DNA of 64,000 nucleotides, from the NCBI GenBank assembly GCA_963969365.1, contig OZ017757.1, positions 558,001 through 622,000 of the forward strand, read 5' to 3'. This DNA is from Asterochloris sp. CNOR1. Its lineage: Eukaryota; Chlorophyta; Trebouxiophyceae; Trebouxiales; Trebouxiaceae. A program made the position numbers and the translations under genes. Numbering within the stretch: position 1 is the first letter of the stretch; each line of letters opens with the position of its first letter. Positions 1-64,000 of the stretch are shown one piece after another. The notes under the pieces were generated by a model. The model searched no databases. It was given only the letters and a program-made list of their open reading frames with translations, and was not told the origin of the DNA.

Positions 1-3000
1 AGGACTGTGATAGACAGGAGTGATGACAGCCAAATGCGCAACCACATGTGATGTTGGTGCTTGTGCAGGGCTTCTGACACGTCAACCATTCGAGCGTCGC
101 ATCACGATGAGCAACCCCTGTGAGCTTACCCGTGGGAGCACACAAGTTGACTGCCTTCCCCAGCTTGTGCCACATAGAGACGATGTGCTTGGTGGTTGTG
201 GTTTTGCCGCACCCAGGCCCGCCGGTGAGCACCAGGACTGGCGCTGTCGCAGCCTGCAGAACGGCTGCTCGCTGCCCCTGAGACAGCACTTGCCCATCTG
301 CACGTCAGGTTCCAGCGCATCAGTACGAGGCCATTGCAGATGAGACCTGTCCGGTGTCTGCTCTTGACGCTTTGCTGCATAGGCCCCCTTGCATGTCAGC
401 CATCAGGCATGCCACTGAGGCGCGTACAGCATGTTCAGGTTGTAAACCTATAAGATCACCAGAACCCTCCAGGGCAAACAACATGCAGGCTCAGGCGAGC
501 TGGAATGGAGCTGCTGCTGGTGCCATGCTTTCAGATGCTGTCTGACATGGGCATCAGGACCCCAGGTAATCTATGCTGAAGTAGGGCTCTGTGGTTGACT
601 AGCTTATATTGTTTTGATGTTGCAGTGTTGCATTGTGGAGGGCAGCATCCTCTGAGCAAGAGATGAGGCACAACATATGGAGATGTGGCCTGCAACAATG
701 CTGGTCCACAATGCTGCGGTCACAAGTACCTCATTGAGCAGGCAGCAAGCTCTTTGGAAGCAGAGCTCAGCAGTCAATCCCGCCTAGCATGTTGAGCTGT
801 CCCCTGTGCATGTGTTGACCAGATCTGGGTCAACAACCTTTATGTGCAGCTCCCCTTCGGGCACGCCAAGCGGCAAGCAGCAGGGTGGCAGATCCCCATC
901 AACAAGCACCAGAAAGCAAGCAACTTGCAATATCACAATGAGCTGCTGTGTGACCCGGCACTGAGGAACGAGCTGGTGATGACATGAGCAATTCAGCCTC
1001 ACCCGTAGAGCTGAGCTGCTGGATGAGCCCCTGCAGGTGCCTCTCTAGCGCAGGACCCTCGGTGACTTGGGGTCCACTGATCTTCACTGGCACAGGCGGC
1101 CGACGTGCCAGCTCTGCCAACCTCTGGGACACACGCACCTGCAGACAGGGGCCCACACACATTGCTATCTGGTCCGAGACACTTTGTGCGTCATCGTCTC
1201 TATCCCTTGGTAACATCAAGGTAGACATGGTGAGATCCTAGTAGGGCGACAACAAACATGGTGAAACCCTCGTGGGGCAACAACAACAACAGCAACAAAG
1301 AGCGTGGGCTTCAGAGTGGCTTTCTGTGCACAAAGCACAGCAGCTTCCCCCCCAAAACAAGTCAGCAGGGAACTTCAGCATGCAGCTGCAAGCTCATGCT
1401 GTGCCTCAACACATGTCAGCAGGGAATGTCAGCGTGCAGCTGCACATCCGTGTCATGCCTCAACACAAGTCAGCAGGGAACTTCAGCATGCAGTTGCAAT
1501 CCCATGACATGCAGGATCTCACCTGTGACAGCACCAGTACCAAGCAGGCACTCAAAGCGCATTTGCAGGGTGCAACACAGCTGTCCCTCACCCAGAAGGC
1601 ACACTTCAACCTGCGACTGCTACAGGACTGACCTGCACCTGGCAGCAGATCTGCTCTGCATCATGTAAGCTTGGAGAGGTTGCGGCGTACAGCATGTCCC
1701 ACTGCTGCTCAATGGAAAGCTCTTGGTGCAGCTCACTGCTGCATATAGCAGCGCTCAGCTGCTCTGTTGCCTGGGAGTCATTCAGTGCCCAGAACACCTT
1801 GGCTCACCTCAGCATTGTACATGTCTGGCAGGTAGCAGCGTGCAGAGTCATCCCACTGCAGCTGGGCAGGGGCAGCGTCGCGCGGCTCCGCTGTACCTCC
1901 CTCCACCACCAGTAGGCCCTTCAGGAACATGTCTAGGGCCACATCCTCCATGCTCTGCTCACAGGCATAGGGCCGACCTGCAGGCGCAGGAGGAGGGGAT
2001 GAGATGGCGTCAAGACATAGCTGCTGCTCACCCTGCAGGCGCAGGGGAAGAGGGATTGCGGGCAGCAAGGCAACCTGCTGGCACGGGGAAGCAGGATGTT
2101 GGCATCAAACATGGCAAACTGCTCTGCTTGAGGCCTATGGCAGCCTGCAGGAAGGGTAGTTTGCTGGCAGCCCACACAGGGCAGCTGATCTGCTTTGCTT
2201 GCAGACATCAGGCGTCAGGCTGCCCTACAGGCACAGGACAGTGTACATAGTGTGGTGTCAACTTGACATATTGCGGCTAGCAATGGTTCCTTGTACTTGT
2301 CAGCTTGCAGGCATCTGAAGGCATCCTAAAAGCACAGGAAGGGGCTTGCTGACCCCGCCCTGGCAGGTGGCAGGTTTGTCTTGTTCATCTTGCACCATAT
2401 TGGCCAGCAGCAGCCTGGCCTGGGCCCAGACGCATTTATCTTACGTTGTGGGCACCTGACCATGTGGTGCGTGCCTGACGTTATGCTTGCCATGGCAGCC
2501 AAAGCTTTTTAACCTAAGACAGCTGACCAATCTGGGTCATGGACCTGGCAACTTAGGTAGGAGGTGGTTCTTTTGCCATGAAAAAAAGTGATTGACTGAC
2601 CTGTGCTCTGAAGGAGCCTCTCTGCCTCCTGAGTCACCACCCTCCAGGGGAGATAGGTGTGGCCACCGCTGCCCACCGCTGTGCTCAACACCTGAACCAT
2701 GGCTGAACCCAGCCTGCTGGGCAGGTTGAGCGGAGTGCCCAGCTTCACTGCCAGCTTCTCAGCCCACCTGCAGCGCACATCAAGCAACTGTTATATCCTG
2801 TATAGCATGGCCAGGCAGATCTGGCATGCTGCTTGCCAACTTTGCCAGCCTTCCAGCAGCGGTCAGACGACCACCAACACATCTGTGACACATTATCACA
2901 AGATAAAGTAGCCCACCTTGTCAAGTCAGCCCAGCACATGTGCTGACAGCAGCAGTGGGTGCAGTGGCATGTGTGTGCGTGCCCATCAGCTATTCACCTG

Positions 3001-6000
3001 AAGCTATTGTGGCTGCCCGTCTTCATGAGGGCCATATAAGGGTCTCGCTTCACAACTGCCTCTGCATTGGCACCGTGTGCTGCCAGAAGCTGCCTGACAA
3101 CCTGAGACGAGACATTACAGGACATCAGAAAGTCGCGAGCCACACGGTCACCTGCACAGGCAAAGAGGTGGCATGAGATCACATTTGCACACATGTCTGC
3201 CTGGTGGTCTGCTTAAGCAGAGTTACCACCGCAGGCAAGAAGCCTGCTGTCCCCCCGCCAGTACAAGCAGTGACCTGGAGACTTCCATTCATACATTAAA
3301 AGGACTCAGCACACAGAGGCTCTGCTGCCAGCTGCAGCAAGATGCATCATGGACATCGCAGGCCACACAGCCGACAGCTGGCAGCGCTCACCGCTGCGCT
3401 TGTCCCAGTCCGTCTTGATCTTGACAGCGGTCTTGGGGCCAATGCCTTTGCACCTGTGGGCAGTCAGGGCAAGAGCCTCCATGTTGCCGCAAAGGAAGGC
3501 TTCCCAGCAACTTGAGCACAAGCAACTAGCAGGACCCAAACTCATGTGAGGGCAGCGCAGGCTTAGGCAGCCTGACATTGACAATGTGTCTGGAGACAGG
3601 CTGGCACCGAAGCAAGGGCTCAGATTGAGGGCAGCAGCAGGCATGGCCCATGCAGGCTCTGGCAGACTACACAATGAAGAAACGAGACAGCAGGCACTAA
3701 TGCAGTGCAACACAATCACGCAGCGCCCCCCGTGCATTTGCCTTCCAAGACTGCTCTCCCCGGAGTGCAACTCATCTCTTTGGCATGCTGGTACCCACCG
3801 TTGAAGCATCTCAACAGCCTCTGGACCGTCCATGATGTCCAAGATGGCGTTGCCATGCTCAGCCACCATTGCAGCTGCCGTCACAGGTCCAACCTGAAGT
3901 ACAAAAGCGATGTGATGCACTTGTATTCGTGACATACATGTACGCCTGCCTCACAGTGCCCAGCCACCATCGCAGCTGCAACCACAAGTTGAAATTGCAA
4001 GGCAAAATGACATTCGCACGCCAGCTGCTGAATAGGCGCCCAATTTCTGCAGTGTTGCAGCAGGCCTGTGCTGAATCCGCACCCACTCTCGACAGGGCTC
4101 GAGGATATTGTTGCACCAGCCCCAATTGCACTGCGCCCCCAACACCATCCCTTTACAGCCCTGATGGACAGGCCGGCAGTCTGCAAAATCATGCAGGCCT
4201 GCCAGACATGCAGACAGCCTTCATGGCTCGCATTCACGCCTTTGCTGTTGGCACTGTAGCCCCTTGCATGCTTGGGATCTTGTCACTTGCTGAATGCACA
4301 AGCAAATCACAATCAGATGCAGGCAAGCAGAGTCTACAAGGCGGCAAGATGGCCTCCCTCACCACCTCTATATCCCTGCTGGACGGGTAAGCAGTCTCCT
4401 CTTCCACCAGGCAAGATACCTAGATCACTCAGTCCATCATGCAGAGCTGCTGCTTTTCACTCCTTTGCAGGTCTCCCCCGCCCATCAGCTTCCTGACAGC
4501 CTCTGGGCACCTGCTAATGGTCTACAGCAAACTGCACCAGCTACTGTCGTGCTGCAATGATGGCGAGCAGGGCCGGGCTTCCACATGGCTGTGAATGACA
4601 AGCTCCTGCGCAATGTGCCGAAGGCGCCTAGCTTGCAGCACAGTGAGCCTGCAACTGACTGGAATGCAGCTGGGCTCACCCCCTTGGCAGCTCCGCCCGA
4701 CAGGTAGGCTATCAGCCCCTCATCAGAGTCAGGCTTGATGTGCTCCCATTGGGTGGCCCTGAGCTGCTGCCCAAACTTGCTGTGGCGCACCCACTCCCCT
4801 GTGAAGCACATCTCCTGCCCCTCTGTGACTTCTGGGAACTGCCCCACCACTATCAGGGACCCTCCCCCTCTGGGACCACGAGCGCTGGCGTGTGCGTCAA
4901 AGCCCTGCACAGCAATCAGCAGGCCTTGAGTTGGGTCACCCGGAGCTATCAAGCTGGGTGGTTGGGCAGAGCAAGCCACCTGCCTGCCGCAAAAGAAGAC
5001 GTATCTGTTGTACCAAGCAAATCTTTGTCACGTATATCTGCTGTTCTAGACTCAAGATGAAGTGTTACACAACAAGGCAAGTCCACTTTGCAGTGCAAAC
5101 ATGGGACAGCATGCCATAACTGCAAGCGCCCCCTGACAATCATGCGGTGCAAAATAGTGATGTACAGGCAGGGCCATAGACAGAACACCACTTTTTGAGT
5201 TCCATGCAAAGCAGTGTGACTGGGGTTCAACTTTCTGCGCAAACCCAGCACTAGCCAAGCACTCACAGCAGGTTCCACCTGCAATCTGCGCGGCTTGACG
5301 TCAAGCACAGCTCCTGGCCCTACCAGGATATATGTCTGGGCCCCATCCTCCCAGCAGTACTGCCAGCCACTGCTGTGCAAGAGGGTGCTGTCATGCTGCA
5401 AGGGGGCCATAAGCAGACACCCTCACCTGCACGCTGCGGGGCTTGACCTTGAGCACAGTGTAGCCTGTGTCTGCTGACTTGTAAGTCACGCGGTGCACAA
5501 CACCTCGCAGGACAGCAGGAGCTCCAGCTGAATGGAGACTGCTGGCAGCAGATGGCCCGAGCAGGCCTGCCTGCACTCCAGCGCCTGCCTGTGCTCCAGC
5601 TGCGGCTGCGGCTGCTGCTGGCTGGTCACCATCCGGCCGGGGCCTCTTGCCAGAGCGCTGCTGCTGAGGCTGCCTGGGGGCAGCAGTTGCATTGTCTAGC
5701 CGTTCAGACTGCCGGCGTAGACTGCCAGACACCCCCTGCCCTCGACCAAAGACCTTGAGCGTTGCACGCCTCTCTGGTCTCTGCCAGCTCTCCTGTGAGC
5801 TGACCGGCTGCGCCTGTGCATCAGCAGACGCTCTCTCGGCTAGGGCTGGGGCAGCAGCAATGGTGTGGCCACGCCGCTGCACCTGCATGGCAGCAGGTGC
5901 GTCCTGCAGTGCCTGCTGCCTGCGCTGGGTGTCTCGCTGGGGGCGCCTGGCATTAGCATCAGCGGCCCCGTGCAGGGCACGCTGCTGCTGGGCAGGGGTG

Positions 6001-11575: not shown

Positions 11576-11697
11576 TGCAAGACAAAAGCAAACAGCATTC
11601 AGATGGACATACAGACGGAGCTGAGAGCAGAGTTCCTGTTTCATCAACGTTTGGTGCAGGTACTCATTCAGAAGCAGCAGTTCTCTTCACATGCAGC

Positions 11698-13946: not shown

Positions 13947-16900
13947 ATGTCAGATGTGTCAGACAGCACTCCCAGCAGCCCACAGGGCAGGGTGTCCATC
14001 GATGAGTTTGATCAGGTGAGATTGAAAGGCATGCCACAATTTGTTGCACTGCCATGCCGCTGCTGCAGCTCCCTGCTGAGTGATTCAGCATCTGCAGAGG
14101 CGCTACTTCCCACACCACCTGGATGATGCTAAGGCAGCAGAACCACCGGCGCCTGAAGTGCACAGGATCCTTGGACAGGCTGCAAAGGATGTGCTGCAGG
14201 TCAGATCGAAATCCTCATGTTGGGAGCACAGCTGCCTCTCAACACACAAGAACTTCTGGCACCTGATCCCGCTAGCTGTGGACTCATGGTCACCAGCCTG
14301 CGGAGTTGCATGCTGCACTGCACCATACCTGAGCAGCCTTGTGAGCTTCACCGTCCCCACTAACTGCCCCATCTGGCAGCTGGAGAAGTTGACGAGGTGG
14401 TGCTGAGATGATGCTTTGTTAGCTGGGTGAGGTGCTGGGACGTGCGGACAGGGTGCAAAGGTAAGGCAGGTTGGTGCAGGGACAGACTGTGTAGAGCAGG
14501 CGCAGCACCAGCTGGGTGAGATGGCGCTGACATGATTCTTTACACATACCTGTAGAGCAGCCAGTCCAGGTTGCAGACCCTCCCGGGCCTCTGGCCCAGG
14601 CAGCATACCTTGGGGCACGCTGCAGCTCCGCCCACAGCTCTCCCTGTTGCTGGGTGCTCGCCGGGCACAGCCTGCCACAGCCTGCCAAAATGCATGCTGC
14701 CCTGCAATGTATCTGAGCAGCCTTTTGAGCTCAGTTCTGTTTCCAGTCCAGCCTGGCCTCCCTACCCCCTGGTCACTAAAGGCGCTCTCCCCTATTGCTG
14801 TGGACCTTGCTGCCACCTGATGCATGCGCTCCGTGCCCCATGCAACGTACTGTGCAAAGCATGCTTTGCTGTTGCACTCACCTACGTGCTGCTGGCTCAG
14901 GTGTAGACAGCAAGCATCTTGCAGCTTACTCAATAGATCGACCATCCAGAAAACAAGCTGATGCCGCATGCAGGTGGTTATGTTCTGCGTGTCCAGCATG
15001 CTTTGCACTCCTCGTCGTTACCGTCAGCTTTGAGCGCCAGCACAGGTCGCCCATTGAGGAAGGGTGTTCACGCACCTGGACCTCAGCCTTCTGCCTCGCC
15101 CGTGCCGGGCTGATGCCCCATGCAGGTCATCAAGCAAGGGGGTCAGCTTGCTCAGCACCCAAGTCCGGAATCTGTTGGCCCATCAGGAATCAAGCTGATG
15201 CCTCATGCAGGTCATTGAGGAGGGCGTGCCCCGTTCAGAGGGCATCAAGAAGGAGAGCGTGTATGTGGGCAGGGCTGGCATCGCACTCATGTACCTCCAC
15301 ATGGCCAAGGCGCTGACACGGGCCCAGGCCAGTGCAGTCTCAACATCGTCTGCCTGGAACAGTGGGCAGGTCAGCTCTGCTGCCATGTTTCCCCTACATA
15401 GAAACAGGTGGGAGGCAGGCTCACTCTCCATGTGCTGATGTTGGCTCCCGCCAGCCCCACACAGCCAGCTGGGGGCAGCATCCTGGCAGAGTCTGTCTGT
15501 GCAATAGTTGCTGTGGAGCCTGTGCAGGCCGTCATTGCTGGAGTGCAGCAGATGGCAGCACTGTGCAGGTGAGGGGTCAGGCCAGTGCTGCAGAGCCACA
15601 AGCTGAACAGCCCTGTGCAGGCAGGTCCAGCCCCTGCTGAGACTGCCCAGCGCTTGGCGCAGGCATGGTGCCAAAGTCTCACTTGCTGAGGCGCTCCTGC
15701 AGGCCTCGGCTGAGCCGGCTTAATCAGGCAGAGATGCTGCACAAACATATGTCTCTGCCGCGCCATGCTGCTGAAGCGCTCATGCAGGGGCAGGGCGGCC
15801 CTGCATTGGCAGCTTGGGAGCTTGCACAGGACAGTCGCTGCTGCCGATTAGGACCAGGTGCTGGCAGGCAGCAACATCTGGCTGCAGGACATGGTGCAGC
15901 ATGTGACCCCTGCAGTGTTTTCAGCAGCCTACATCCACAGGCCCCTGCAGGTGCTGATACGTGCTGCCTGCGCTGCAGGCAGGTGCAGCTCAGACCTTCG
16001 CAGCTGTGAAGCCTGGGCAGGGCGGCGCTGCCCTTTCAGAATTTGAAGTGCAGCCTCAGCAGCTGCTGGCCAAGGCTCTGGACCACATAGAGGCCAGCGA
16101 GGGGATCTCCGGCATGCTGCAGCACTTCAGGGTGAGCTGCAGAATGGTGCCTCAGCAATTGTGACACGCCTCCTCCTGCAGCTGCATTGGCTGCATCGTG
16201 ATGACCCAGGAGTGCCTGCATGTCCTGTAGCAAGCAGTCGAGGGGTGAGCTGTAGCTGTATGCCTGTTTCACTTCTGCCATTCACTGTGCGCCACCATGA
16301 CCCACCCTCAGATGAGCTGCAACTCTATGTATGGATGGCGTGATGGTCACAAGCATCTCCCGCATGTCAGTGGTGGTCTGGCTGCCTATTTTGGAGCCCC
16401 TTGCTGTCAGTAGCAGCTGCCTGTTATGTCGGTGTGCCAGATCAGCCTCAAAGCAACTGTGCAGAAGCACGGGCTGATTGGGCTGTCCCCTCCCTGCAGT
16501 CACTGCTTGCTGCTTGAGGCCCATTCAAGGCCAGGCTGCTGAGTTGGAGAATTCCCCCTAAATGCAGAAAGTCACGTTCCTTGAGGGAGCCCCAGGCATC
16601 CTCGCTGTGAAGACTGCCATCCTGAGCACCCTGGGGGACAGAGGCAGCGCTCTGGCAGCTCAGCAGGTGACATTTCTGCTCCACCTGGCTGTCTGGCTAC
16701 TGCCTGCCTCAGCATGTAAACATCACCCAGCTGGTCGCTTTCAGTGTGCCTTCAATCAGGTAGGCCAGTGTTGGGCCCTCGGCTTCCATGTATATGGAGC
16801 TGGTTTCTGCAGCCCTTTGGGTTGAGTTAAGCTGTGAGCCATCACACCAAGCGGTGCTGTTGCCCTGTCATCAGCCTGTATTGCAGTCTTCAGGCTGCTG

Positions 16901-40345: not shown

Positions 40346-40425
40346 CTGCCGGGCAGAAGTCAATAGATATGTCCTGGGGGAGCATGTCAGTCACAAAGAC
40401 GGGCACTGTGGGCAGTGGACCACAG
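39980..40425 (-). repeat. Two exon-edge duplications in the GT25-like gene
   Basis: The exon end and donor at 40100-40130 (GCCTCACCATGATTGG..CTGTATCCCA) recurs at 39981-40010 (GCCTCACCATGATTACACTG). The exon start at about 40302-40345 (ATCACGAAGACGGGCGTTGT) recurs at about 40386-40425 (GTCACAAAGACGGGCACTGT). Each copy lies on the intron side of its parent. Confidence 0.85.
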
Positions 40426-47311: not shown

Positions 47312-50300
47312 CTATGAGAATCGCTTCTGCATCTCAGGGTAGCGGGGGATGTCCACAACATTGCCCAGGCTGGCCATGGACACGGGGGTTTTGAGCATTG
47401 CGCTGGCTGCCTTGGTGATGTCGCCGGCAGACAGCTTCTCAATGGTCGTCAAAAACTCCCGCACAGGTATCCTGCAGGCCAGAGCAATCCACATGAGCAT
47501 ATCAAAAATTGCCAAGCTCAGGCTAGCAGGTGCCAACACTGTACATGCCTGCACCAGCATGGACAGTGCAGCACAAAACTTCTGCTGAGCTGCCTCAGAT
47601 ACTGCATGTAGCGGCACTGTAGATGTGGCAGTGTCCCAATCTCACACCTTGCCTTCACCAGCAGAGGTTAATACCTGACGACCATAAATGCTGGTACAGG
47701 ACAAGGGCAGAGGAGACAATGTTGGGCACCTGTCTCACCTGTTGCCTGAACAATCACCTGTCGACTGTGACATGCTCACATACAAAGGGATGCTGAAGGC
47801 GGGCTTCCTTGCAGTCCAACATGTGCTTCTGCTCCGCAAGAGTCTCACCTCTTGCCATAGGCCAGCACCTGGCGGCCGATGTCCTCTGAGACCACTGCCC
47901 GGCTCTCCAGGTTCATCAGCACGCCGTTGATGGCAGATTGCTTGGCCCTTCGCAGCTCCTCATCGCTGACAGACTTGGCCACATCCTGCACATCAGCGAC
48001 CATGTGGTCACGCTAGAGAATTGATGCTTGTGGGACTGGTACCGCATAGCTGCTCCCCTTCTGCAGCACAGCTGCAAAGCCACACTGCCAACCCCAGTGC
48101 CAGCTTTTGTGCTTCTAGCCGCTTGCGTGCTGAGTTTGTAAGCCATCTGCAGGATGATGCTTAAGCAGTACCAACAGGGCCATTCCCTTCCTTTTGTATA
48201 GAGCACACCGCAAGCCCCTGCACTCAAATTTTTGGTGCCAGCACAAAGTGGGGACCCGCCTCCGCAGACGTTGTCCACAGCCTTTGCCTTTGCAGTGCTC
48301 TGCATCTGTCTGGAGCTGCTGCTAGCACCCCAGAAAAGTCAGAAGTACCTGCATGAGGTGCAGCACTCCGCCAGCTGTGTCCATGGGCTTAGAGGCACAC
48401 CAGCCACAAGCTGCATGGTGCCAGCACAGATGCCCGACACAAGTGATCTGCAGCACTCCGCAGACTGTATCTGCCGGAGGCATTGGCAGCGTACTGTTCC
48501 TCAGCTGAATGATGCCAGCTTCAAATCAGACTTTCAGCGCGCAGACCCTAAGCTGTAATCTGACTCGACTGACCTGCAGCACTCCACAGACAGCGTCCAC
48601 GGCCTTGGAGGCGTACTGGCTCTCTGCTGAGGTGAACACGCCAAACAGCCCTGTCTCATTGTACATGCTGTTGATGGCGGTGCAGTTGTGCAGCCAGCTG
48701 TGCTGGTTCAGCAGGCTGGTGTAGATCTTGCTGTGCATGCCCTTCCCTGCAGGAGGTCAGGGTAAGATGCTTGTAGCACAGGGAAGCAGCTCTGGGCACA
48801 TTGAGACAGCATCAGATTGGCTGTACCAGGCCTGCACATTTCGGCCCCTGATTCACCAGTGATGCTCAGTGTGGCATCACCAGAGCAGGCTGTGCAGCAG
48901 GCCACAGACAGCACATCACAACATGAGGTACAGCAGACAACTGCGCTCGCAGCTGGGACTCAGGCGCTGCTCGAGACTCGATATGCTGAGATGCAAGAAT
49001 ATGGATCTATACTGGAGCAGTGTGCTGAACAGTAACGATTCTGTGCGGATGAGGTAGGCACAGTGCGAGTGTGGCAGCAGCTGCACACACCTGGCCCGCC
49101 GGTTGAGAACGAGCCGCCGCCGCCCAGCAGGTACTGCAGCACCATGGAGGAGCAGGCGCCCTTCACGTTGCGCCAGCCGCCAGCAAACTCAAAGCCCAGC
49201 ACGAAGTGGGTCATGGGCCCAGCCAGGAACTGCCTGCAGGGAGAGGCAAGCCATGCCCGTCAGGTGATGCCTGCAGGGAGGGCCTTGTGTACAGAGTGTC
49301 AGGCCAGCAGTGCAGGCTCCAGGTGCTGCCAGTTGGGTGCGTACGTGGCCGCACTCAGCCAAAGGGAGGGAGGGAGCAGCGCCTCCTGCAGCCCACCCAA
49401 AGGTATGACCTCTGCGCCAAACAGCTGCAGCTCCTGGACAGGCTGCATGCCATTAGCACGGACACGCAGGACCCCAGCACAGGCAGGCCTCTCGTGGGCA
49501 GCTGGCAGGGACACCGGAGACCTTGCCGCACCCAGCGACATGCCTCAACAGTGCTGGGCTCCAACTAGTGCTGTGCTGCATACGTGAGCTGGAGCAGGCC
49601 TGGGAGCTATGAGGGACACAGCAGCAGCCATGAGGGTGCTGCTGGCCGGCACTGTAAGAATGGCGGTGACCACAATGAGCACTGCAGAGCTATTTTCTGA
49701 GTGGCTCACCTGTAGTCGCCGCCCACATACTTGCTGGCAGGCTCTGAGGCCTGGCCCCCTGGCACGCCGGTCAGCAGGGGCTCTGCCAACTGTTTCAGGG
49801 CAGAGTGCTTCACGCCGCTGCCCGCCAGCACGATGCGCGGAGCCACATAGTTGGCTGTGAAGAAGTCGTGCAGGGTCTCGTCGTTCAGCGCACTGAGGCT
49901 GTTCTCCGGGCAGACCAGAGGCTTGGCCAGCGCGCCGGTGTATGCCACTGTGTGAATGCCCTGCAGCACAGCAAACAAGCTTGTTATGTGTGTGGACACT
50001 TCCTATCATTTGCCGTTGCCACTTCCAGGCCAGGCAGGCGCTTGGGAAGTGGCACAACAGAAAATGGGTCCTGTGTGCGTGTCCTATCAAGCAGCACCCG
50101 GACATGATGGAGCATATACGTGCCCTGTGCACTGCAGCTCCCTGCTCATCAGGTTAGCCACAGTTCTCTATGGAGTTGCCACCTGGGGCATGCTGCCGAC
50201 GGCCACCTGACCAGCCTGCCCAACCAAATGCACACCGATCCCAACCTGCGCAGCAGGCTAAGCAGTGTGTCCTGTAGCCACCCTGTGGCAGCCTTTCTGC

Positions 50301-52566
50301 AGCGCAGCTGCTGTCACTACTGCACTTAGGGCGCCATGCAGGCCACCAGAGCACGTCGGCATGCCCCTATAACACCCCCTGAAACTTGCAAAAAACCCCT
50401 CCCAGGGCAATGCTCTGAACACATTTGGTTGTCCATCTGCATAGTATGAATCGTCAGCACCCCAAAAACGACCTCAAGAGGCCCACCTCCAGCAGCATGG
50501 TTGCCCTGGATGCATTTGGATCCTCCTTCAGACGCGCCACCTGAGCATCTCAGCATGCCCCACGAAACACGCACCTCTAGCAGCATGGTCTGGGGGTTGC
50601 CCTCGATCTCCTTCAGGTCTTCCTTGAGGCGCGCCAGGGCGTCCCTGACCTCCCAGTTCAGGAAGGCAGGGTTCAGCACACTGTCTGCCAGGATCTCCAG
50701 AGCCTCAGGCACATTTGTCTTCACGGCATCAATGTTGTACACAATCTGCAGGAATGTGGGCATGGTGGTCGGCGCCTTGAGCATTGTACTGCCAAAAGCA
50801 TCAATGTTGTCAACAAGCTGCCAACCACAGCACACCACCGTTCAGGTGGTGCACTACGCGTGCTGTGGCATGCAGGGCATAACAGCAGTGGGGCTTGAGG
50901 CTGTCACAGACACAGTATCCTTTACACACGCCCAATGCCTCAAGACGGTGTCCAGGCAACTTGATGGCAGGCATGGCATGCCAAATGCTTGTGTCTAGCC
51001 TTGACAACTGGCAAGCTCCTCCTGAGCTGACATACGATCGTCATGCACAGCAGGGCAGAAGTCAAGCGGAGTGAGGTCTTTCAAATTCAGGTGGGAATGA
51101 TGCTGCTGCTAGACGCTTTGTCAAACCTGCTCTCGTGAAGCCGACGCGATCACATTTGCACCCAGAGCCTCCACCTGCAACAAGACCGCTTGATCAGGTG
51201 GCTGTTGGCTAAAACTCTCTTGATCGACGAATGCTTTGCTTATTTATACTGCTGCTGCTTGCTACAGCCCCGCGCCCCGCACACAGAACAGGGCGACGAT
51301 TACCAGGAAGCGCCTTGGCTGAGTCCTCAGCAGGAGTTCGTACTGTCATGCAGATGCAGCAGGCCAGCAACTGCAGGTCAGCGTAGACTTTGAACATACA
51401 CCAGGTAGCTGCAGCGCACATGCTGCCCAGACTTCACCTGCGCCTGGCCATGGCTCACCTCGCGCACCAGCCTGAAGTGACTCCTGTGCTGGGTGGACTT
51501 AAAAGCCATGTACTCCATCAGGTGAGAGACACCTGCAGCCGCCACAAAGGATAGAAGGGAGGCAGCTTAACATACAAAGCAGGCGCCCATGCGGGCACCA
51601 GCGCAATGCAGGCCTGCAGCAGCCAGGCAGCAGGGCCGGTGCAATGTAACCGGTGGTGTGCCCTGAGGCCAGTACGGTGGCAGGCGCAGATGCAGGGGAC
51701 AGCAAGATGCACTCAAGCAGCCGAAGGGAACGGGGAAGAGCAGCGTCGCACCCCCGCAAGCAGATACACATGCAGCTTTCATGAGGAGGCGCCTGCCGCT
51801 GACAGCAAGTGGGGGCAGCATGCTGGACTCCTGTCAACGTCTCTGCCTGGTGAGTGCATCAGGGCTACAGGGAGTGTGATCCCCACGGCGCAGTCTGCGT
51901 AAGCAATTGCTGCTGCGGGCCATACCAGTGCTCATTCAGGTCCAGCATGACTGACCTGTCTGGTGTGGTGCCTCCCAGGCGCTGCCGGCCTCCACATACA
52001 GCCCAATGGTTGCTGTGGGGCCCTGCATACAGCAGAGAGGAGGAGTTGTTCCCAATGTGCTACAGGCAGCCTGGTCACCGGGTGAAGGTACAAACAACAG
52101 TAGGCGTGATTCATGGCAACAGGCAGCCCAAGCCGGCATGTTGCAGTTGGAGCTCAAAGGGCGCAGCTGTCTGCGCAATCGGTGGGATGTCCTCATGCTG
52201 ACTGCAGGTGCCAATCGGCACATGAGCTTGCATGTGCGTACATCATCAGAGATGCATGAGCATGGCACTCACCAGAGTGTCTTCTGAGGCCACTTTGATG
52301 CCATTGGACAGGGTGCTCAGCTCTGTGGGCGGCACCTCCTTGGGGGCATGCTGCAGGTATGGGTTCTCCACCCCTGGCAATGGATCCGTGAGAGGCACCT
52401 GCAGTCTTGCATGGCCTCCCCCAAACAGGCTGCTCAGGAAGCCACCGCCTGAGGAGCTCTGTGCCACCGCAGCGTTGCCAGCTGATTGCCCCACCGCACT
52501 GGTGCTGATGGCATTCTGCAGGCAGGCTGACAGAGGCCGCTTGCTCCCCTGCAGCGTGCGCAGCAT
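47312..52566 (-). CDS. Mitochondrial processing peptidase alpha subunit
   Basis: Non-catalytic subunit of the matrix protease that removes presequences; it binds substrate through a glycine-rich loop. Ten exons join in phase: 52566-52273, 52022-51956, 51532-51461, 51174-51127, 50745-50575, 49960-49710, 49233-49091, 48746-48574, 47985-47849 and 47471-47312. Signatures: presequence MLRTLQGSKRPLSACLQ; TLSNGIKVASEDT; ATIGLYVEAGSAWEA; VSHLMEYMAFKSTQHRS, where the beta subunit has the zinc motif HxxEH and this one reads HLMEY, as expected for alpha; SASREQIVYNIDAVKTNVPE; VAPRIVLAGSGVKHSALKQL; the glycine-rich loop LLGGGGSFSTGGPGKGMHS; MNLESRAVVSEDIGRQVLAY; and the end FLTTIEKLSAGDITKAAS. Its stop lies 93 bp upstream of the SAL1 start on the same strand. 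It is divergent from the YIPF gene. Confidence 0.95.
48245..48625 (-). repeat. Copies of an MPP alpha exon end in the following intron
   Basis: The exon end and donor at about 48570-48620 (CTGCAGCACTCCACAGACAG) recurs at about 48450 (CTGCAGCACTCCGCAGACTG), 48360 (GTGCAGCACTCCGCCAGCTG) and 48248 (GACCCGCCTCCGCAGACGTT). Spacings are about 124, 90 and 112 bp. In the first copy the donor GT has become AT. Confidence 0.88.
50485..50830 (-). repeat. Copies flanking both ends of one MPP alpha exon
   Basis: Exon 50745-50575 has a copy on each intron side. Its end plus donor (50573-50640, ACCTCTAGCAGCATGGTCTG) recurs at 50487-50545 (ACCTCCAGCAGCATGGTTGC). Its start plus acceptor (GGCATCAATGTTGTACACAA, 50725-50745) recurs at 50797-50825 (AGCATCAATGTTGTCAACAA). 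Confidence 0.88.
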
Positions 52567-52727: not shown

Positions 52728-55700
52728 ATGGAGTCGCAGGGATGGAAGGTGCGAACATCAGGCCCATCATTGTGCATGTTTCATGCCGGCTGGGCACACC
52801 TGCCAATGCCTGCAATCTTTTTCCTGCTACCATCTGCAGGGGGGCAGCAGTTCTCCCTCACGGGGGTCGCCACAGCAGAACTACAATGTGCAGGCAAGGC
52901 TGCGGGGCCACACATTCCCAGAGAACGCTGCCTCTCCCAGAGTGTTCCTGGCCAGGCGCTGGTAGCAATGCCATGGCATGAGTTGTCATGCCTGTCTGCA
53001 GAGCACCTACTACCCTCCAGACTCCACACACAGCAGCGACTACCAGCCTACAGGGACAAATGCCCACGATGATCCCTTCAGGCTGCGGGACTCTGACAAT
53101 CCCTTCGCAGGGACGCTGGCGGGGCATGCAGAGGTGGTGCCGGTCCCAGAGCACAGCTCTGTGACTATCCAAACCGGCGCCCAGCCAGGCAATGTGGTGC
53201 TGCAGTTCCAAGGTAAGTGCACAGGGCAGGAGGTGTTGCCGTCTTGTATCATGCGAGGATTTGCTGCTGCACTTCTAGGTGATTGAGTGTCTAGTTGTCT
53301 GGCTGACATGCTCACGCCCGGCCAGGCAGCCGCTGTGCTGCAAAGGCAAGGTGACTGCACAGATTGGAGAGCGTCAGATGTGCCTGCCTGATGCGCTGGT
53401 GCCCGGCCAGGCAGTGCTGTGTGCTGCATGTTCAGGGCGGTCGCACAGGCCATTGTGTGCTGGCTGCGTCTGCCTGACATGCTGGCGCCCAGCCACACCA
53501 TGCAGTGCTGTTGTTTCAAGGGCACCCATGATGCAGCTGAACTGACTGTCATGGGCCTGCTGTTGCCATCAGTCCCAGCCTCTGAATGATCCGCGGTGCT
53601 GGCAATCACTGGCTTTGTCTGCTGCACATGTTGCCCATCAAGGGCACCCCGGCAGTCTGCCAGGCTGTGCTGGTTGTTCCAGGAGTGCTACCTGCTGAGG
53701 CTGAGCAAGATTGCACTGTGCAAGTTTGAGATCATACTGCTTGTTCATAGCTTCTGTAGTCCGTCAGGCCTGCGCAAGCTGTGCAATTTTGCACTTGCCT
53801 TCAAGACTTTCATGTTGTGTGCAGACTCGCAGCTCCACCAGAGTGCCAGTCCCCAGGGAAAGATGGGGCAGGAGGTTCCTAGAGGTAATGTGAGGGCTCT
53901 GCACACCTCAGGTCCTGCATGCAGACTTTGTGGCCAGGGCATGTTTGCCAAGGTGGCTTGCCTGCTGCAATCCAGCAATGGGGCCTCTCTGCAGATGGCT
54001 TTGCAGCAAGTCAAAGATTAGCCCTCTGTGCTTGTAGCCCTGGGAACTTGCATGTGCACTGCTTGGCTGTGGCCTTTCTGCCTGAGGGTCAGCCTCACAC
54101 CCATGCATGCTAGTTGCACTGTCTGGCTGTGACTTGCCTGCCCAGGCGTCAGCCCCACAGCTCTTCGGATGCGGGGCCTGCATATCGACTGCTTGGCTCT
54201 AAGCCACCTGCTCAGAATGGTGTCAAGGCCCTGCAGGGCGTGCATGCTGCTTGGTCATGGCCGGCCTGCCTAGAGATTGACAGTCCCCAGCCCTGCAGGA
54301 CATAAGGCCTACATCTGCACCGCGGAGATGTGCACTGGCCTGCTTTTAGGTGCCTGCCAGCTTGCAGAGCAGTGAGTTTTCAATGTTGCTGGCCATGCTT
54401 CCACATATGCAGCTTACCTGCAGATGGAAGATGGCTGAGACTGCAGCCACTGCTTATAGGAAGCAGCGTGCCTTGTCTGCCTGCAGTCACCCTCTACCCA
54501 GGCACAGCCTGCATAATGCGAGGGCCTCTGTGTGGCTGATGGCAACTGCTATGCTCCAGGACAGGATGCCAATCCTGCCTGTAGCCCACTCCTACCCAGA
54601 CCATGCCCGTGTGCAGACGCAGACGTCCTCGACTGCAGCATGCCCTTGCCTGCAGTCACATCCTACCCGGACAACACAAGCATGATGCAAGGGCACAGTC
54701 GGCAGACGGCCGGGGCAAATGGCGGCGAGGGGGACCCTGTCGACCCTAACAAGAAGTACTTCTTCCTCAACGTGAAGGCCTACCGCAAGTACTTCAATGT
54801 GGACACGAATGTGAGCCTCAGCTGCAGTGTGCAGGGAGCTGACTGCCTTGTGGGAAGACTTCCATTGAACCTCACATGAGAAGTGGACAGCACTGTGAGC
54901 CCAAGCCACTCTGCAGTGCAGAACGTGCTGATACAGTGAGGCCCTTCGCCTAACCATGCCTGTCTGTCTGCTCTCAAGGTTTTGTGTTGCTGCTACTGCA
55001 GGATGTGTTGCAGCGAGTGGGGGACTCGGTCATCGGGTCCTACAAGGCAGACTTCTTTGACAAGACTACTGACAATGCAGACCTGTGAGATACTGCATCC
55101 TGCACATGTGCATCTTTCAGCACATGGCCCTTGCAGAGACTCCTGTGTGGCCTTTCAGCAAGGACCGAAACAGCATAAGCAGACTGCGAGACACTGCATG
55201 TCACGCCTGCCATGTCAGAAGCTTCATCTGCTGCTTGTGAATGTACAGGCTGCAAGCCCTCACAGCCCATGTCTTGGCTGTGCTGTCATGTCCTGGAACA
55301 AGAATGCAGAATGTCAGGCATTGCCCCAGAATTCCGCATGGACTGTGAAATCAGGTGTCAGGTGCACATGCCATGCTTGTGACTCAGCCACTGGCCCCAA
55401 AGGCCTCCCCCTGACAGTATGGCTGTGGGCTGGGTACACGAGCCAGGCCTGAGAGTAAGGCACCCCTGTGCTTGCTGAACATGCATCTGCAAATCACTCA
55501 TCAGCAGGCGTGAGCCACTGCTTCATGGCTGGGCAACCACTGTATGGTGGCACTGCATGTACGCAGCCTGTGATGATTCAATCTGCATCTCACGCAACTG
55601 GTGCAGCTGCTGCAGAGCTCAGCAGCAGCATTGCCAGCCCCTGACTGTGCTGCTGTTGGCTTGGCTGCCAGATATGGGTTGTTATGTGTGGTGTGTGGCC

Positions 55701-58531: not shown

Positions 58532-61500
58532 TCACTTCTCATATACAAGGAAGGTAATTGCCGACTGTGGCATGACCCGCAGAACGTTGGGGACGATGCC
58601 CTTGTAGAGCCCCACTATGCCTTCCCGCTGCAGGATCAGCCTGAAGGTGGCGGCCACCCCCTGGTACTGCACAGGACGGCTGCCCTGGCGCTGCTGCAGG
58701 CGCGACCTCACCACCTGCAGGTCATAAAAGGGAGAGTGGGTGGGAACAACAATGCAGTTGGTCCACCTCGTTGTTACTGAAGGGCGCCGCGCCACTGCTG
58801 CAGCTGCAAGCTTACCACCTGCAGGCCTCCAGGAGGCCATTCATGGCCACATAACAATGGCCAAACCTGACAGTGCCAATGTCAGCACCTAAGCATGGGA
58901 GCAAGGCATGATAGAGTCAACGAGGACTGCCACACATGCAGTTCCAGTGCTGCAGCAACTGTACCAATTCATGCTACCCAAGATGCCCCACCAATATACA
59001 GACTGCCAACAGGAATAGCTGATGGCAACAGCCCGAAGGCTGCCTATATCACATAGACCTGGACCTGCATGATCCTGCCTAAGCAGAATGCAGACCTGAG
59101 AGGGACAACGGACAGTAGAGGGCCCCAGCTTGAAGGCAGCGCCAACAACCGAGACCTGGACTGCCGACCTGCCACGGGCACCAGCCTGCCCCTGCAGCGA
59201 CCCTCTGCATGACAGCAGCTCAAGGTTGACTCAACTGCCCACCTGAGAAGGGTAGGTGACGGCTGAGGCCACCAGCTTGGAGGCTGCACCCATCAGTGAG
59301 ATCTGAAAGGCTGACAAGCTGGACCTGCCAGTGTCCTTAGCGTACTCGCCTGCGCCAGCTGTCAGGGCCTTCAGCTCCTCATACACCATAAATTGGATGG
59401 CACCATGAGAGACCTGCAGGGCGCAAAGTGCCTTCAGCTATTTCACGTGTGAGGTGGGCAACATGGGGTGGGCCTTCAGGTCATCATACACACTGCATGA
59501 GCAGCGCCAGAGGGAAGTGCAATGACACCTTGTCAGCTTTGTCATTTTTGTTGTGGCGTCATGACCTGAGAGAAGCTGTAACAGATGTGTGGACCATGCC
59601 CTTGCTGCTCAGGTTGTCAGCTCCTCATGCGCCATGATCTTTACACTGCCATGGAAGACGTTCAGGTGTCGACCCTAGTGTCGTGAGTCCTGAGACCCAA
59701 ATGCAAAACATCACCGCTTGCTGCATGTTTCTGCGCATGGGAAGCCTCCAATGTTAAAGCTTCCTGTGAGCGAGAGCTTTCTGCATACACACAGAAAGCC
59801 CCTCCAGACCACAGCCAGTCAAGACTGAAGCAATTGTGGTCGCCTTATGCGCAAGCTCTGCTTGGATGCAGTGTCTAGCATTGTCCCAGCATGGGCTTGG
59901 GAGATACATTCTGATGGTGGTGGCCATGCACGCAGCAAAGTATGAGTGCTTTTGGCGCACCAACAGCAGGGAGGGAACCAGCCCCTTGTAGAAGCCCAGC
60001 AGGCCCTCCTGACGAGCAATCTGGCGCGCTGCATCCACCAGCCCCCTGTACGCTGGCATGGCAGCAGCCCTCTGGGCCGCGGCGGCCTGGGGGCCTGTGG
60101 TGGCGGCTGCTGCTGCTGCAGTCGCGCGGCGCTGCAGCTGCAGGCGGGTCTTGATGACCCAGATGGGGTTTGTCGCCAGGCAGACCTGCAGCGGGGGCTT
60201 GGACGAGGTGAGCTCTCCCGGTGGTGCACCTGCAGACCTGATGATCAGCCAAGAATGCAGCAGAGACTGGGTACTGGGGGCCCTAAGTGCCACTAGTGCT
60301 GACAAGAGTGGGGTTGATTGCCAAGTAGACCTGCAGGGTAAGGCAGCATGCGGCGGCCAACTGCACAGTAAACGACGACCAGTGGCGGTCACCCATGCAT
60401 GCCAAGTAGACACCGGACGGGAGCATAGATCCTGGGTTGCAGGGGTGTTCCTGGGGCTTACAAGACACACTGCGACCTGAATGCAGCATTTTAGTAATTG
60501 TCCTGGGGCATCAATTGAACTGATAGGCAGCTGAGCTGGGCTGCCGCCCAGATGTCTCGAGGGTCTCAGCAGGGGTTCTGGTGTTCCAGCCAATACAGGT
60601 AGATCATGCAGGCAGCAGTGCAGATAGCTGCGACCGTGAACACTTTGTTGCACAAGCATCAAAGAGGCCAAGCAAGCTAAAGAGTCTTGGGGCATGGTAA
60701 GCAGAAGGACCTCACCAGGCCGCCTGTCCCTTCCTTCTGCAAATGAACCCGCTAGGCCATTGGGCCCCAAAACAGGCAAGATCGAACCATGCCTAGCACA
60801 CTTACCACGCAGCCTGCCTCTGCTGCAGACAGCAGGTGGACCTGGGGGGCCAGCTTGGACTGCCCGGTCCAGCGCTGGTACCGGTCCTTGGCTCTGTTGT
60901 AGAAGGCAAAGTAGAGGCCCCAGGACATGCCTGCATCCCAAGCATGCAGAGCAATGGTCGCAGAAGCCAGACCATGCTAGACACAGGCATCTAGATGTCC
61001 AAGCATCCCAGGGCATGCAAGTGAGTGTTGCAGCTCCCCAGCCTCAAGATAGAGGGCCTGAACACACCTGCATCCCACAGAGCCAACTTCAACTGGCTGC
61101 AGACAACTGCTGCAGCTTGGCAGCCAGGTCAAGTGGTGGCCAAGGGACATGCCTGCAGCCAAACAATCTGTGAACAAGGCCACCCTGCCTGCACATGCAG
61201 ATTAGTGGGTGCCTTACCATGGCTTCCCAGCTCAGCCTGAGATGTGCTGCCCTGGTCAGCGGGCATGGGTACCCAGTCGTGCTGATCACAGGGTGAGGCA
61301 CAGCAGGGTGTCTGCAACGCACATTCCCTGCCATGCACTTTCAGCCAGCTGCATGGTGTGCGGCCTGGCTGAGATCTGTGGGCCGAGGTGATCAGCGGTG
61401 CATGCAGCGCTTCCATGGTCACAGCGGCTCGGACCTGCAGTGGATGCAGCCACCTCCACCCTCGCCAGCTTCACCTCTTGTTGGAGGTCGCCACCCTTTT

Positions 61501-61939: not shown

Positions 61940-62187
61940 GCAGAACAGCAGGAGGGAGTTGTCAAGGGATCAGCATGACACTTGGAAATTTGGAGCATGT
62001 GCCACTTTCCTTCTAAAAAAAAGGAACGGAAAGTTTGCAGATCGAGGGCAGGCTGCAAAAGCTGGCTCTGCTGAATATCTCAGCAGAGTGACTGCAGTGC
62101 TTGAGAGAAGGTGAGCGGTTAAGAGACTGCCCGCTACCAGCTGATGCTTGCTGTCAACGACTGCTCATGCATGGTGCAGGCAGGGCC
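61940..62187. promoter_or_regulatory. 248-bp divergent promoter, FOLT1-type / SKIP
   Basis: Start codons are 248 bp apart. An A-rich run (about 62016-62040) lies in the middle. No named element was recognised. The open plus frame continues upstream of the SKIP ATG, so the exact start is a choice. Confidence 0.5.
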
Positions 62188-64000
62188 ATGGCCACGATGC
62201 TGGCTCACCTGCCTGCTCCAACCAGGGAGTATGTGCCACCTGCTGAGGCGCTGCCCACCAGCACAGCACTGGCCTCGCGCATCAGCAAGGAGCCTCCTCC
62301 TTATGGCTCTGTGGAGAGGCAGCGCTACATTCCTAGGCGACCAGAGGATTTTGGTGATGGGGGTGCGTTCCCAGAGATCCAGGTAAGCCGATGGCTTCAC
62401 TTGCTGTCTGCCAGCTCCGCAGCGTACCTGCTTGATGCACACTGGCACGCAGGTTTGATGGGGTCTCGTGCTGGCTGTGCTGAGAAGTGCTTTTACTCAG
62501 TTGCGCCTCCGGCGATTGCGGGGCTACAGCCGGAACCAGCTGTGGATTGTCTACTCCGCCTGTGCTATCAAGTCTGCTTACCAACTCTGCCTGTGATGTG
62601 CTTGCCGTCCCTTACCCGCATGTGTAGTCAGGTTGCTGCACATCGTGGGTTTGCCTTCACAAGCAACCTTGCAAGCACAGGACACCGTTACACCTTGCAT
62701 CCCATCTGCAGGACACTCAGCATCCGCTTGGGCAAGGGACGCCGTCGTAGCGTCCATGAGTTGCCGTTTCTCATGCTCTGTAGGCGCTGGGAATGGGCCA
62801 AGAAGGAGGGATGTGCCTTGAGCATTATATCTATCGAGAGCCTGATCAATTTCTGGCGCTGGCTGACCTGACACTTGCTGTGGCTCAGGGCTCACAGGCA
62901 ACAGCAGATGTGCCGCTGCAGCTATATGGCTGGGCCTGGGGAATCATCGCTTCTTTCACCTGCGTTGCAGGTGGCTCAATACCCCCTGGGCATGGGTAAG
63001 AAGGAGAAGGGGGGGGCAGGAGGGGGCAGTGGTGCCAGCAGCACAGGCACGCTGGCCGTCACCGTAAATGCCGATGGGGATGTGAACTATGATGCCATCG
63101 TCAGACAGGGCCGCAATCAAGACAAGATCGTGTACTCTGATCACAAGGCACTGGTGCCCAAGCTGGACAGCCTTACGGAGGTGGGAAAGAAAATTCTTTC
63201 CCTGTCTGGGCAATGTTGTCGCAGCTCAACGCAGGGACATCAAGGTGGCGATGTATTCAAGTTGCACAGCCTTACAGAGCTGGACAGGTGCATATTGTGC
63301 ATCATTGTTCTGGCAGCTGATTGCAGGGATCCCACGTTGGTAGCAAACAGCCATCAGATGGGCAGGAGGCAACTTTGTGTAATGTTGCCATTCTGGCAGC
63401 TGATTGCAGGAAGGCTGTGGTGTGCCCAGCAGAACGAATTTCTCGAGGTGTTCAAGGTGCTTGTTCAAGGTGCTTTGCGTGTGCCCTGCTCAGATGCTTC
63501 TATCTCTTGCTCAGCTAGTTCTGTCCCCGCATCAGTTTCTTTTCCTCAAAATAGGTGCAGCATTTGTGAGGGGCCCGCGCGGCGTGCTGCCAGAGCTTGC
63601 TGCACAGAAATGAGATGGCCCGACAGATCATTCAGGCACCACCTTTCCTGCCCTCTGTCCTCCTCAAGCCTGCACTGTGCCCTGCAGAATTTCGAGAAGC
63701 CTGATGAGGATGAGGTGGCTCAGACCGCCAAGGAGACTGAGGCTGCACTGCTGGCTGTGGTGACCACCAAGCTGCATGCCCAGCAGCCCAAACAGCTGCC
63801 CAAGCAGCCAGGGGACGCCCAGTACATCAAATACACTCCTGCGCAGCAGGGCAAGCAGTACAACTCAGGGGCGGGCCAGAGGATCATCAAGATGCAGGAC
63901 ATGCCAGTGGACCCCATGGAGCCCCCCAAGTTCAGGTGCACTGCGCTGACTTGTAGAGGGATGAGTGTTACGTGTGCTGGTGAGAGCAGGTGGCGCAGAG
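62188..64000 (+). CDS. SKIP: SNW-domain splicing/transcription coregulator SKIP (partial, runs off right edge)
   Basis: SKIP/SNW1 is a spliceosome (NineTeen-related) component and transcription coregulator in the nucleus. Exons 62188-62382, 62971-63180 and 63688-63935 join in phase. They read LPAPTREYVPPAEALPTSTA, then EPPPYGSVERQRYIPRRPED and FGDGGAFPEIQ/VAQYPLGMGKK; VNADGDVNYDAIVRQGRNQD and KIVYSDHKALVPK; NFEKPDEDEVAQTAKETEAA; QYIKYTPAQQGKQYNSGAGQ and RIIKMQDMPVDPMEPPKF. These match the conserved N-terminal arm and the start of the SNW domain (YTPSQQG..FNSGA.QR.I.M...DPMEPP). The rest of the SNW domain is outside the window. A Gly-rich KKEKGGAGGGSG stretch replaces the usual short linker. 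ATG 62188 is chosen because MATMLAHLPAP fits family N-termini; ATG 62170 is possible. Confidence 0.94.
63160..63410 (+). repeat. Exon-end copy and exact 20-bp direct repeat in a SKIP intron
   Basis: The exon end (CTGGACAGCCTTACGGAG/GTGGG, to 63180) recurs at about 63258-63285 (TTGCACAGCCTTACAGAGCT). Further on, TTCTGGCAGCTGATTGCAGG occurs exactly at 63308-63327 and 63391-63410, an 83-bp spacing; each contains a possible branch and acceptor sequence. Confidence 0.88.

Follow-up and report, generated by a model that had tools for sequence, protein, structure and literature searches.

Messer and Arndt are said to have found in 2007 that tandem duplications make up most short insertions. For human coding sequence, the passages of PMC2151769 on insertions count 134 of 151 as tandem duplications. 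Short duplications within genes are cited in PMC4974935, where the interest of the passages concerned lies in new or multiplied introns, and Rogers-type intron gain is described there and, in the relevant part, in PMC2891723 as tandem duplication of an AGGT segment. A search of the open-licence PMC literature found no paper presenting copies of exon edges as a genome-wide pattern.

The green alga Asterochloris sp. CNOR1 (genome of 56 Mb in 21 contigs) carries decayed copies of exon edges within its introns. This observation, made in the initial annotation of a 64,000-bp stretch (hereafter the window), is confirmed by the present analysis. The pattern is real and orderly, and ordinary small duplications combined with natural selection appear to explain it.

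Local direct repeats in exons and introns

Four stretches totalling 364 kb were analysed: the window, C1 (200 kb), C6 (50 kb) and the held-out C15 (50 kb). Repeats were sought by a lag-banded Smith-Waterman comparison with cut-offs of score at least 17 and lag 20-620, and the same comparison with the lag displaced by 8, 16 and 24 kb served as control. This method replaced a sensitive BLAST self-comparison that returned nothing in direct orientation below lag 100, we think because matches near the main diagonal were dropped; a first Smith-Waterman scoring scheme, which did not separate local from far matches, was discarded. Altogether, 260 local direct-repeat pairs were detected, against 0-8 per stretch in the far-lag controls, from which a chance expectation of about 11 of the 260 follows. 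The window held 62 pairs (2, 4 and 0 at the three shifted lags), C1 110 (7, 8 and 1), C6 54 (5, 3 and 2) and C15 34 (0, 1 and 0), while 50 kb of E. coli K-12, taken as a method control, gave 2 (0, 0 and 0). Lags thin out above about 250 bp, and among BLAST pairs in the window (score at least 36, lag 20-250) direct matches were present and inverted ones absent; the copies thus combine the direct orientation and proximity that mark small tandem duplications. TRF reported just 10 rows in the window, so most decayed copies escape it. Intron bases lying within a detectable local copy, intron-internal copies included, amounted to 6.2% in the four stretches. One 50-bp array was noted as a candidate for Rogers-type intron gain.

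When introns were compared with their own flanking exons, as the initial annotation had suggested, 47 of 502 matched at a score of at least 17. Exons of other genes gave 1.45 matching introns on average over 20 rounds and never more than 3, and the reverse complement of the introns' own exons gave none. In line with the proposed lengthening, introns with copies were longer, with a mean of 563 bp compared with 412 bp for those without (score at least 16). All ten genes named in the initial annotation have at least one exon-involving pair (Table 1), although in the GT25-like gene the single such pair stops short of the splice site.

Table 1. Exon-edge copies and one intron-internal array in the window
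Gene and copy	Position	Strand	Used or partner copy	Splice site	Lag	Remark
RecD2-like helicase, decayed acceptor + exon start	3957..4007	-	3856-3906	acceptor 3893	101	gene by Pfam
RecD2-like helicase, decayed exon end + donor	5276..5310	-	5424-5458	donor 5426	148	
LanC-like, decayed acceptor + exon start	14947..14994	+	15184-15231	acceptor 15210	237	region self-matches only in genome
LanC-like, second decayed copy	15109..15139	+		acceptor 15210	85	
F-box/LRR-like (putative), decayed exon end + donor	20773..20817	-	20879-20923	donor 20882	106	label from initial annotation
F-box/LRR-like (putative), decayed acceptor + exon start	21997..22066	-	21899-21968	acceptor 21937	98	
LHT-type amino acid transporter, decayed acceptor + exon start	32648..32744	-	32551-32649	acceptor 32629	97	aligned length 99, complete tandem
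GT25-like, intron copy of adjoining exon	40372..40413	-	40293-40334		79	alignment ends before splice site
SAL1-type inositol phosphatase, decayed acceptor + exon start	44065..44103	-	43963-44001	acceptor 43996	102	
SAL1-type, decayed acceptor + exon start	45211..45296	-	45042-45126	acceptor 45088	169	region self-matches only in genome
MPP alpha-like (M16), decayed exon end + donor	48436..48508	-	48562-48630	donor 48573	126	
MPP alpha-like, second decayed copy	48354..48396	-		donor 48573	216	
MPP alpha-like, decayed acceptor + exon start	50798..50821	-	50726-50749	acceptor 50745	72	
YIPF-like (putative), decayed exon end + donor	53315..53362	+	53178-53224	donor 53212	137	label from initial annotation; no Pfam hit
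YIPF-like (putative), decayed acceptor + exon start	55662..55691	+	55837-55866	acceptor 55846	175	
FOLT1-type mitochondrial carrier, decayed acceptor + exon start	58779..58825	-	58675-58721	acceptor 58714	104	
Mitochondrial carrier, exon end + donor copy	59089..59168	-	59236-59315	donor 59242	147	downstream of partner; 49 codons
Mitochondrial carrier, decayed acceptor + exon start	59617..59666	-	59371-59420	acceptor 59413	246	
Mitochondrial carrier, decayed acceptor + exon start	60309..60336	-	60164-60191	acceptor 60185	145	
Mitochondrial carrier, decayed acceptor + exon start	61126..61163	-	60904-60941	acceptor 60930	222	
SKIP/SNW gene, decayed exon end + donor	63258..63283	+	63159-63184	donor 63180	99	
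54-bp unit, about 3 tandem copies	1350..1512	.				wholly intronic, example of intron-internal class

Layout at splice sites

Exon and intron borders were taken from gene models predicted from sequence in this analysis, comprising 885 exons in all, of which 557 were well supported (coding log-odds of at least 5). The rule that acceptor copies lie upstream of the used site and donor copies downstream held without exception among well-supported exons, with 47 acceptor and 40 donor pairs (87:0, where shifted placement yielded 26.7 rule-following and 9.1 contrary pairs), the filter having been chosen after five contrary cases had appeared; with all predicted exons, unfiltered, the score was 70:5. 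The five contrary sites adjoin exons of 13-36 bp with coding scores of -0.9 to 3.0. This layout follows because, after a duplication across one splice site, the mRNA is unchanged only when the outer copy is used. Traces of inner-copy use, i.e., pairs of an exon and an edge, were correspondingly scarce: 1 against 17.9 under shifted placement for well-supported exons, and 6 against 20.0 for all predicted exons in three stretches (8 in four). Pairs that combine a copy containing a splice site with a purely intronic one numbered 87, compared with 36.3 (sd 5.3) under shifted placement, and fall on 68 splice sites, so that they are not all independent.

As to spacing, 75-150 bp describes the pairs fairly well, but "mostly" overstates it, as 40 of the 87 pairs lie in that range (median 136). 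The figure of one to three copies per edge is mostly right, with up to four unused copies at an acceptor in C6 and a donor in C1. Two or more copies occur at 11 of the 68 sites, several of them at near-multiples of one lag, and arrays with near-regular lags include 88, 168, 257, 348; 98, 186, 299, 385; and 152, 298, 430.

Pairs inside a single exon had lags that were multiples of 3 in 24 of 28 cases (three stretches), many of them from repetitive proteins in C6. The lags of 60 edge pairs left remainders of 0, 1 and 2 in 14, 29 and 17 cases, an uneven but weak distribution with no in-frame bias. Identity between exon and intron copy at codon positions 1, 2 and 3 was 0.762, 0.813 and 0.703 (three stretches, all predicted exons), with an excess of mismatches at the third. 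The splice dinucleotide was retained in 37 of 55 unused copies, against about 31 expected from general identity. The high conservation of the acceptor motif TGCAG in unused copies shrank when scores were computed without the motif, and selection for spare sites is therefore not claimed.

Origin of the copies

Small tandem duplications that are blind to splice sites, sorted by selection, explain the exon-edge copies with a probability of roughly three in four. According to this scheme, duplications with units of mostly about 30-300 bp would arise regardless of splice sites; those within an exon would survive chiefly when in frame, whereas those within an intron would be free. A duplication across one junction would be silent if the outer copy, the downstream acceptor or upstream donor, were spliced, leaving the mRNA unchanged and turning the inner copy into intron. 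The latter would then decay, presumably neutrally, while selection held the used copy, so that the decaying copy would stay recognisable longest on the side of the exon, and repeated rounds would lengthen introns and build up arrays with as many as five copies. The step producing the duplication would be one of repair or slippage.

The evidence on shape is divided. Among the youngest pairs (identity at least 0.88, length at least 25 bp), 5 of 10 are complete tandems, in which the aligned length equals or exceeds the lag; in one, a 79-bp unit spanning an acceptor, 89 bp align at 93%. Many old copies are shorter than plain tandem origin predicts: the median ratio of aligned length to lag was 0.46 for intron-intron and 0.37 for edge pairs (three stretches), and simulated tandems gave 0.59-0.92 in six of seven settings and 0.23 in the most decayed. 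Compared without gaps at the lag of the pair, the sequence just beyond the cores showed no similarity (0.262 versus 0.262). Gapped extension gave a weak signal in intron-side flanks (-3.99 versus a null of -4.89; simulated tandems -2.73 to -5.10), and in exon-to-intron flanks its value of -5.51 was no better than the null (-5.10) and below all simulated values (-2.73 to -5.13). With such short cores and no similarity in ungapped or exon-side flanks, a further contribution is required from larger indels, gain of spacer or copying that is partly non-tandem; most old pairs were probably born in tandem.

A break-repair origin, in which patch-mediated repair re-inserts short nearby segments (within about 200 bp), in tandem or not and with unrelated spacer between the copies, is a tentative alternative of some weight. 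It overlaps with the tandem explanation, the distinction being the way in which the copy arises. The thinning of lags, the cores shorter than the lag and the absent flank similarity all suit it, and such a pattern has been reported in rice (Vaughn and Bennetzen 2014, as related in passages of PMC7407515); the complete tandems among the youngest pairs and the several regular arrays speak for tandem birth instead. That the copies are duplicated exons, decayed or functional as mutually exclusive or cassette exons, is very improbable. The mitochondrial carrier does keep a 49-codon copy with its donor (59089-59315), where the gene finder calls both copies exons and the protein reading suggests which one is the pseudo-exon, and with all predicted exons both copies contain an edge in 25 of the 260 pairs; this class shrinks to 3 of 260 with well-supported exons, and edge-pair lags lack the in-frame bias. 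Chance similarity, composition bias or a dispersed repeat family such as introners has a negligible likelihood. Weak matches are indeed frequent at score 13 (115 introns for own exons, 51.85 for other-gene exons), but the far-lag, other-gene, reverse-complement and whole-genome checks leave no support for this at scores of at least 17, apart from the chance share of pairs given above. In the last of these checks, three copy regions searched genome-wide matched only themselves, where introners would show near-identical sequence at many unlinked loci; the LHT region had three short matches elsewhere.

In its strong form, the proposal of the initial annotation makes splice junctions duplication hotspots, where segments spanning a splice site are duplicated through breaks or template switches linked to transcription, to splicing or to the repeated acceptor word CTGCAGG; this we consider unlikely. 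The excess of edge pairs over shifted placement agrees with such hotspots, as does that of pairs in which CTGCAGG occurs on one strand or the other (77 versus 44.5, sd 5.4), but both are expected from slower decay of exon copies and loss of exon-internal events. Moreover, wholly intronic pairs outnumber edge pairs (113 versus 87, well-supported exons, four stretches). The ratio of exon-involving to intron-intron pairs was 0.99 with well-supported exons (95% CI 0.76-1.29); all predicted exons, the set on which the simulations were built, gave 1.22. Uniform duplication with selection and decay gave similar shares, 0.54-1.40 in 11 of 12 settings: 0.54 (full tolerance); 0.72, 0.74, 0.72, 1.21; 1.25, 0.78, 1.30, 1.40, 7.25; 1.02, 0.95, the value of 7.25 resting on 33 pairs. 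The observed 1.22 sits in the upper part of this range, and the settings, chosen by the analyst, and a replicate scatter of 0.48-2.4 leave room for a modest splice-site preference. The proposal of short tandem duplication at splice sites therefore holds for local copying with one copy used and the other decaying, whereas a process aimed at segments spanning splice sites is not needed. The wider idea that junctions themselves promote duplication, with introns growing from their edges as a standing ratchet with reserve splice sites, is no more probable; if true, introns would lengthen with the mRNA untouched, and exon borders could shift via the reserve sites.

Relation to known systems

Splice-blind tandem duplication provides a checkable rule, namely that a tandem duplication across a splice site is silent with the outer copy in use, and introns can thereby grow as they take in exon edges. 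Conservation of the exon copy means that these fossils can bring to light duplications of which neutral DNA would keep no trace. Edge copies can also mislead gene finders into pseudo-exon calls, and in intron-rich compact genomes edge swallowing could account for a measurable part of the growth of introns.

The copies resemble the within-gene duplications treated in the passages of PMC4974935 in being short, inside genes and involved in exon-intron structure, but in the present cases the exon edge is copied into an intron that already exists and becomes longer. With Rogers-type gain, as outlined in parts of PMC4974935 and PMC2891723, they share a tandem duplication, an unchanged mRNA and one copy becoming intron; in contrast, the cases counted here make no new intron, and the duplicated segment already has a working splice site. 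The generating mutation is the same as that of the insertions in the cited part of PMC2151769, which are short and recent, whereas the units here are old, about 30-300 bp, and are interpreted as fossils beside exons. Finally, the rice duplications are alike in size range, in being local and in being partly not strictly tandem, while the splice-site layout described here is a subject that the passages of PMC7407515 on rice do not discuss.

Gene models and local direct repeats

The genome comprises 56.38 Mb in 21 contigs, and the window, which spans positions 558001-622000 of contig C12, was analyzed with 200 kb of contig C1, 50 kb of C6, and 50 kb of C15. For the lichen alga Asterochloris glomerata, published values are 56 Mb, a GC content of 56-62% over 98% of the genome, and 9 introns per gene (PMC6652019). 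The gene models are our own and come from an HMM gene finder self-trained on the DNA, which converged on the donor CAG/GTGAGC and the acceptor CTGCAG/G; models with less than 240 bp of coding sequence were removed. In the window, C1, and C6 this yielded 725 introns (median 228 bp) in 50 genes, with adjoining genes fused in some cases and many very short predicted exons doubtful. Eight of ten window models entered a Pfam scan (the F-box/LRR-like model and g3 were left out) and seven matched, the proteins carrying LANC_like, Aa_trans, Inositol_P, Peptidase_M16, Glyco_transf_25, Mito_carr, SKIP_SNW, NIF, and RecD2-type helicase domains; the YIPF-like model had no Pfam match.

Banded local alignment at lags of 20-620 revealed 62, 110, and 54 direct-repeat pairs in the window, C1, and C6, respectively, against 0-8 at far lags, while the held-out C15 gave 34 against 0, 1, and 0, and 50 kb of E. 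coli, a method control, 2 against 0. Far-lag controls put the chance expectation at about 11 of the 260 pairs of all four stretches. Exact 12-mers showed the same local excess, dwindling past a lag of about 250 bp, and direct but not inverted copies were enriched. A whole-genome search with three copy-bearing regions matched each to itself alone, so these three, at least, do not belong to a dispersed repeat family.

Exon-edge copies and their layout

At a score of at least 17, a flanking exon was matched by 47 of 502 introns between well-supported exons (coding log-odds of at least 5; 503 found, one removed for length), compared with a mean of 1.45 over 20 rounds with other-gene exons and 0 with the reverse complement of their own exons. 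The proposal of the initial annotation that introns hold decayed copies of the adjoining exon edges is borne out in that own-exon similarity exceeds the other-gene level. An earlier unfiltered run of 720 introns gave 40 matches against about 1, and C15 gave 8 of 105 introns against 0. At a score of at least 16, introns with a copy were longer (563 vs 412 bp, n = 56 and 446), although longer introns also give matches more room, and 26 of 54 genes had at least one such intron. Copies accompanied 68 of 1079 splice sites, with two or more at 11 of these.

The same annotation held that copies lie consistently upstream of the used acceptor or downstream of the used donor. With all predicted exons, 65 pairs obeyed and 2 broke this rule in the first three stretches, 70 and 5 in all four, and 6 and 3 in C15 alone. 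The exons beside the five rule-breaking sites are 13-36 bp long, and their coding log-odds range from -0.9 to 3.0. Removal of exons below log-odds 5 (328 of 885), a filter chosen after the exceptions had been noticed, left 87:0 for the rule (47 acceptor and 40 donor pairs, spread over the 68 sites) and 8:0 in C15, compared with 26.7 obeying and 9.1 breaking in shifted placement. Geometry itself also tilts toward the rule, because the contrary layout requires a unit longer than an exon. The scarcity of exon-plus-edge pairs, the trace of inner-copy use, is the sharper contrast: 1 against 17.9 in shifted placement with well-supported exons, and 6 against 20.0 with all predicted exons in three stretches (8 observed in four).

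Selection, targeting, and mode of copying

If a unit spanning an acceptor were doubled, the mRNA would remain unchanged only through use of the downstream acceptor, and with a doubled donor-spanning unit only through the upstream donor. Since the mRNA is kept only via the outer copy, selection at the protein level predicts the layout and special machinery is not required. Selection is also visible in the phase of exon lags, 24 of 28 within-exon pairs in three stretches having lags divisible by three (many from repetitive C6 proteins), and in mismatches between exon and intron copies, which are commonest at the third position of codons (0.762, 0.813, and 0.703 identity at positions 1, 2, and 3). 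Among the 30 exon-exon pairs found across all four stretches, 20 fall in C6, so repetitive proteins cluster there.

Edge pairs are more numerous than under random placement (87 vs 36.3), an excess explicable without targeting of splice junctions, because an exon copy decays slowly and stays detectable longer and exon-internal duplications are lost. Simulations of uniform tandem duplication with slow exon decay and exon-internal loss, run on all predicted exons with settings of our choosing, gave edge to intron-intron ratios of 0.44 (full tolerance), 0.52-1.00, 0.62-0.90 (four settings), 0.64 twice, and 2.00 in one heavily decayed setting with few pairs. The observed ratio was 0.77 (0.58-1.02) with well-supported exons and, with all predicted exons, 0.97 (70:72, three stretches) or 0.92 (80:87, four). 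When exon-intron pairs were included, the ratio lay within 0.54-1.40 in 11 of 12 settings and reached 7.25 in the other, against an observed 0.99 (0.76-1.29), or 1.22 with all exons. As these values resemble untargeted simulations, targeting need not be invoked, though replicates vary widely (0.48-2.4) and a mild splice-site preference may exist.

Plain tandem duplication is the reading we favor, with a probability of about 0.75, slightly lowered from 0.78 by the exon-side flank scores. Of the ten youngest pairs in three stretches (identity 0.88 or higher, length 25 bp or more), five are complete tandems; in one of them a 79-bp unit spans an acceptor (89 bp aligned, 93% identity). Arrays also occur, with four decayed copies at one C6 acceptor (lags 88, 168, 257, and 348) and three at one C1 donor (152, 298, and 430). 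However, the median aligned share of the lag in edge copies, 0.37, lies below six of seven simulated settings, ungapped flank comparison found no similarity, and exon-to-intron flanks scored -5.51, no better than the null (-5.10) and lower than every simulated value. Gapped intron-side flanks showed weak similarity, as in simulated tandems. Decay with indels accounts for part of the short aligned share and missing flank similarity; partly non-tandem repair copying, described for rice (via PMC7407515), may lie behind the remainder.

Individual repeats in the window and in loci L013 (contig C1) and L021 (contig C6)
Location	Feature	Remark
L013:4136-4507	Donor region followed downstream by three decayed copies at lags of 113, 225, and 409	Nearest copy 83% identical across 166 bp; among the strongest arrays
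L013:9777-9836	25-bp unit, about 2.4 copies, with CTGCAGGTGGGG in each, which could serve as acceptor and donor; predicted 50-bp intron of two units adjoining a 7-bp exon	Doubtful candidate for a Rogers-type intron
L021:8629-8726	27-bp coding repeat	In frame, 92% identical
Window 33812-33841	Run of about 30 G (TRF, 93% matches)	Within span of LHT-type gene model
Window 59089-59315	147-bp (49-codon) tandem copy of exon end plus donor, mitochondrial carrier gene	Both copies called exons, so annotation may include a pseudo-exon

Spare splice sites and known systems

AG or GT was kept in 37 of 55 unused copies, with about 31 expected (motif omitted from the alignment score), and multiples of three were not overrepresented among edge-pair lags (14 of 60); routine use of the unused splice-site copies is supported by neither. 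Across all four stretches, the lags of ungapped edge pairs (n = 60), divided by three, left remainders 0, 1, and 2 in 14, 29, and 17 cases, a weak hint of a shortage of in-frame units.

The genome papers on Asterochloris, Coccomyxa, and Chlamydomonas make no mention of exon-edge copies in the parts consulted, and literature searches, judged by titles and abstract openings, returned no publication with this pattern. Tandem duplication is already known as a way in which introns arise and as the cause of the majority of short insertions (PMC4974935, PMC2891723, PMC2151769). Taken together, the pattern is true and orderly, and its best explanation is ordinary.
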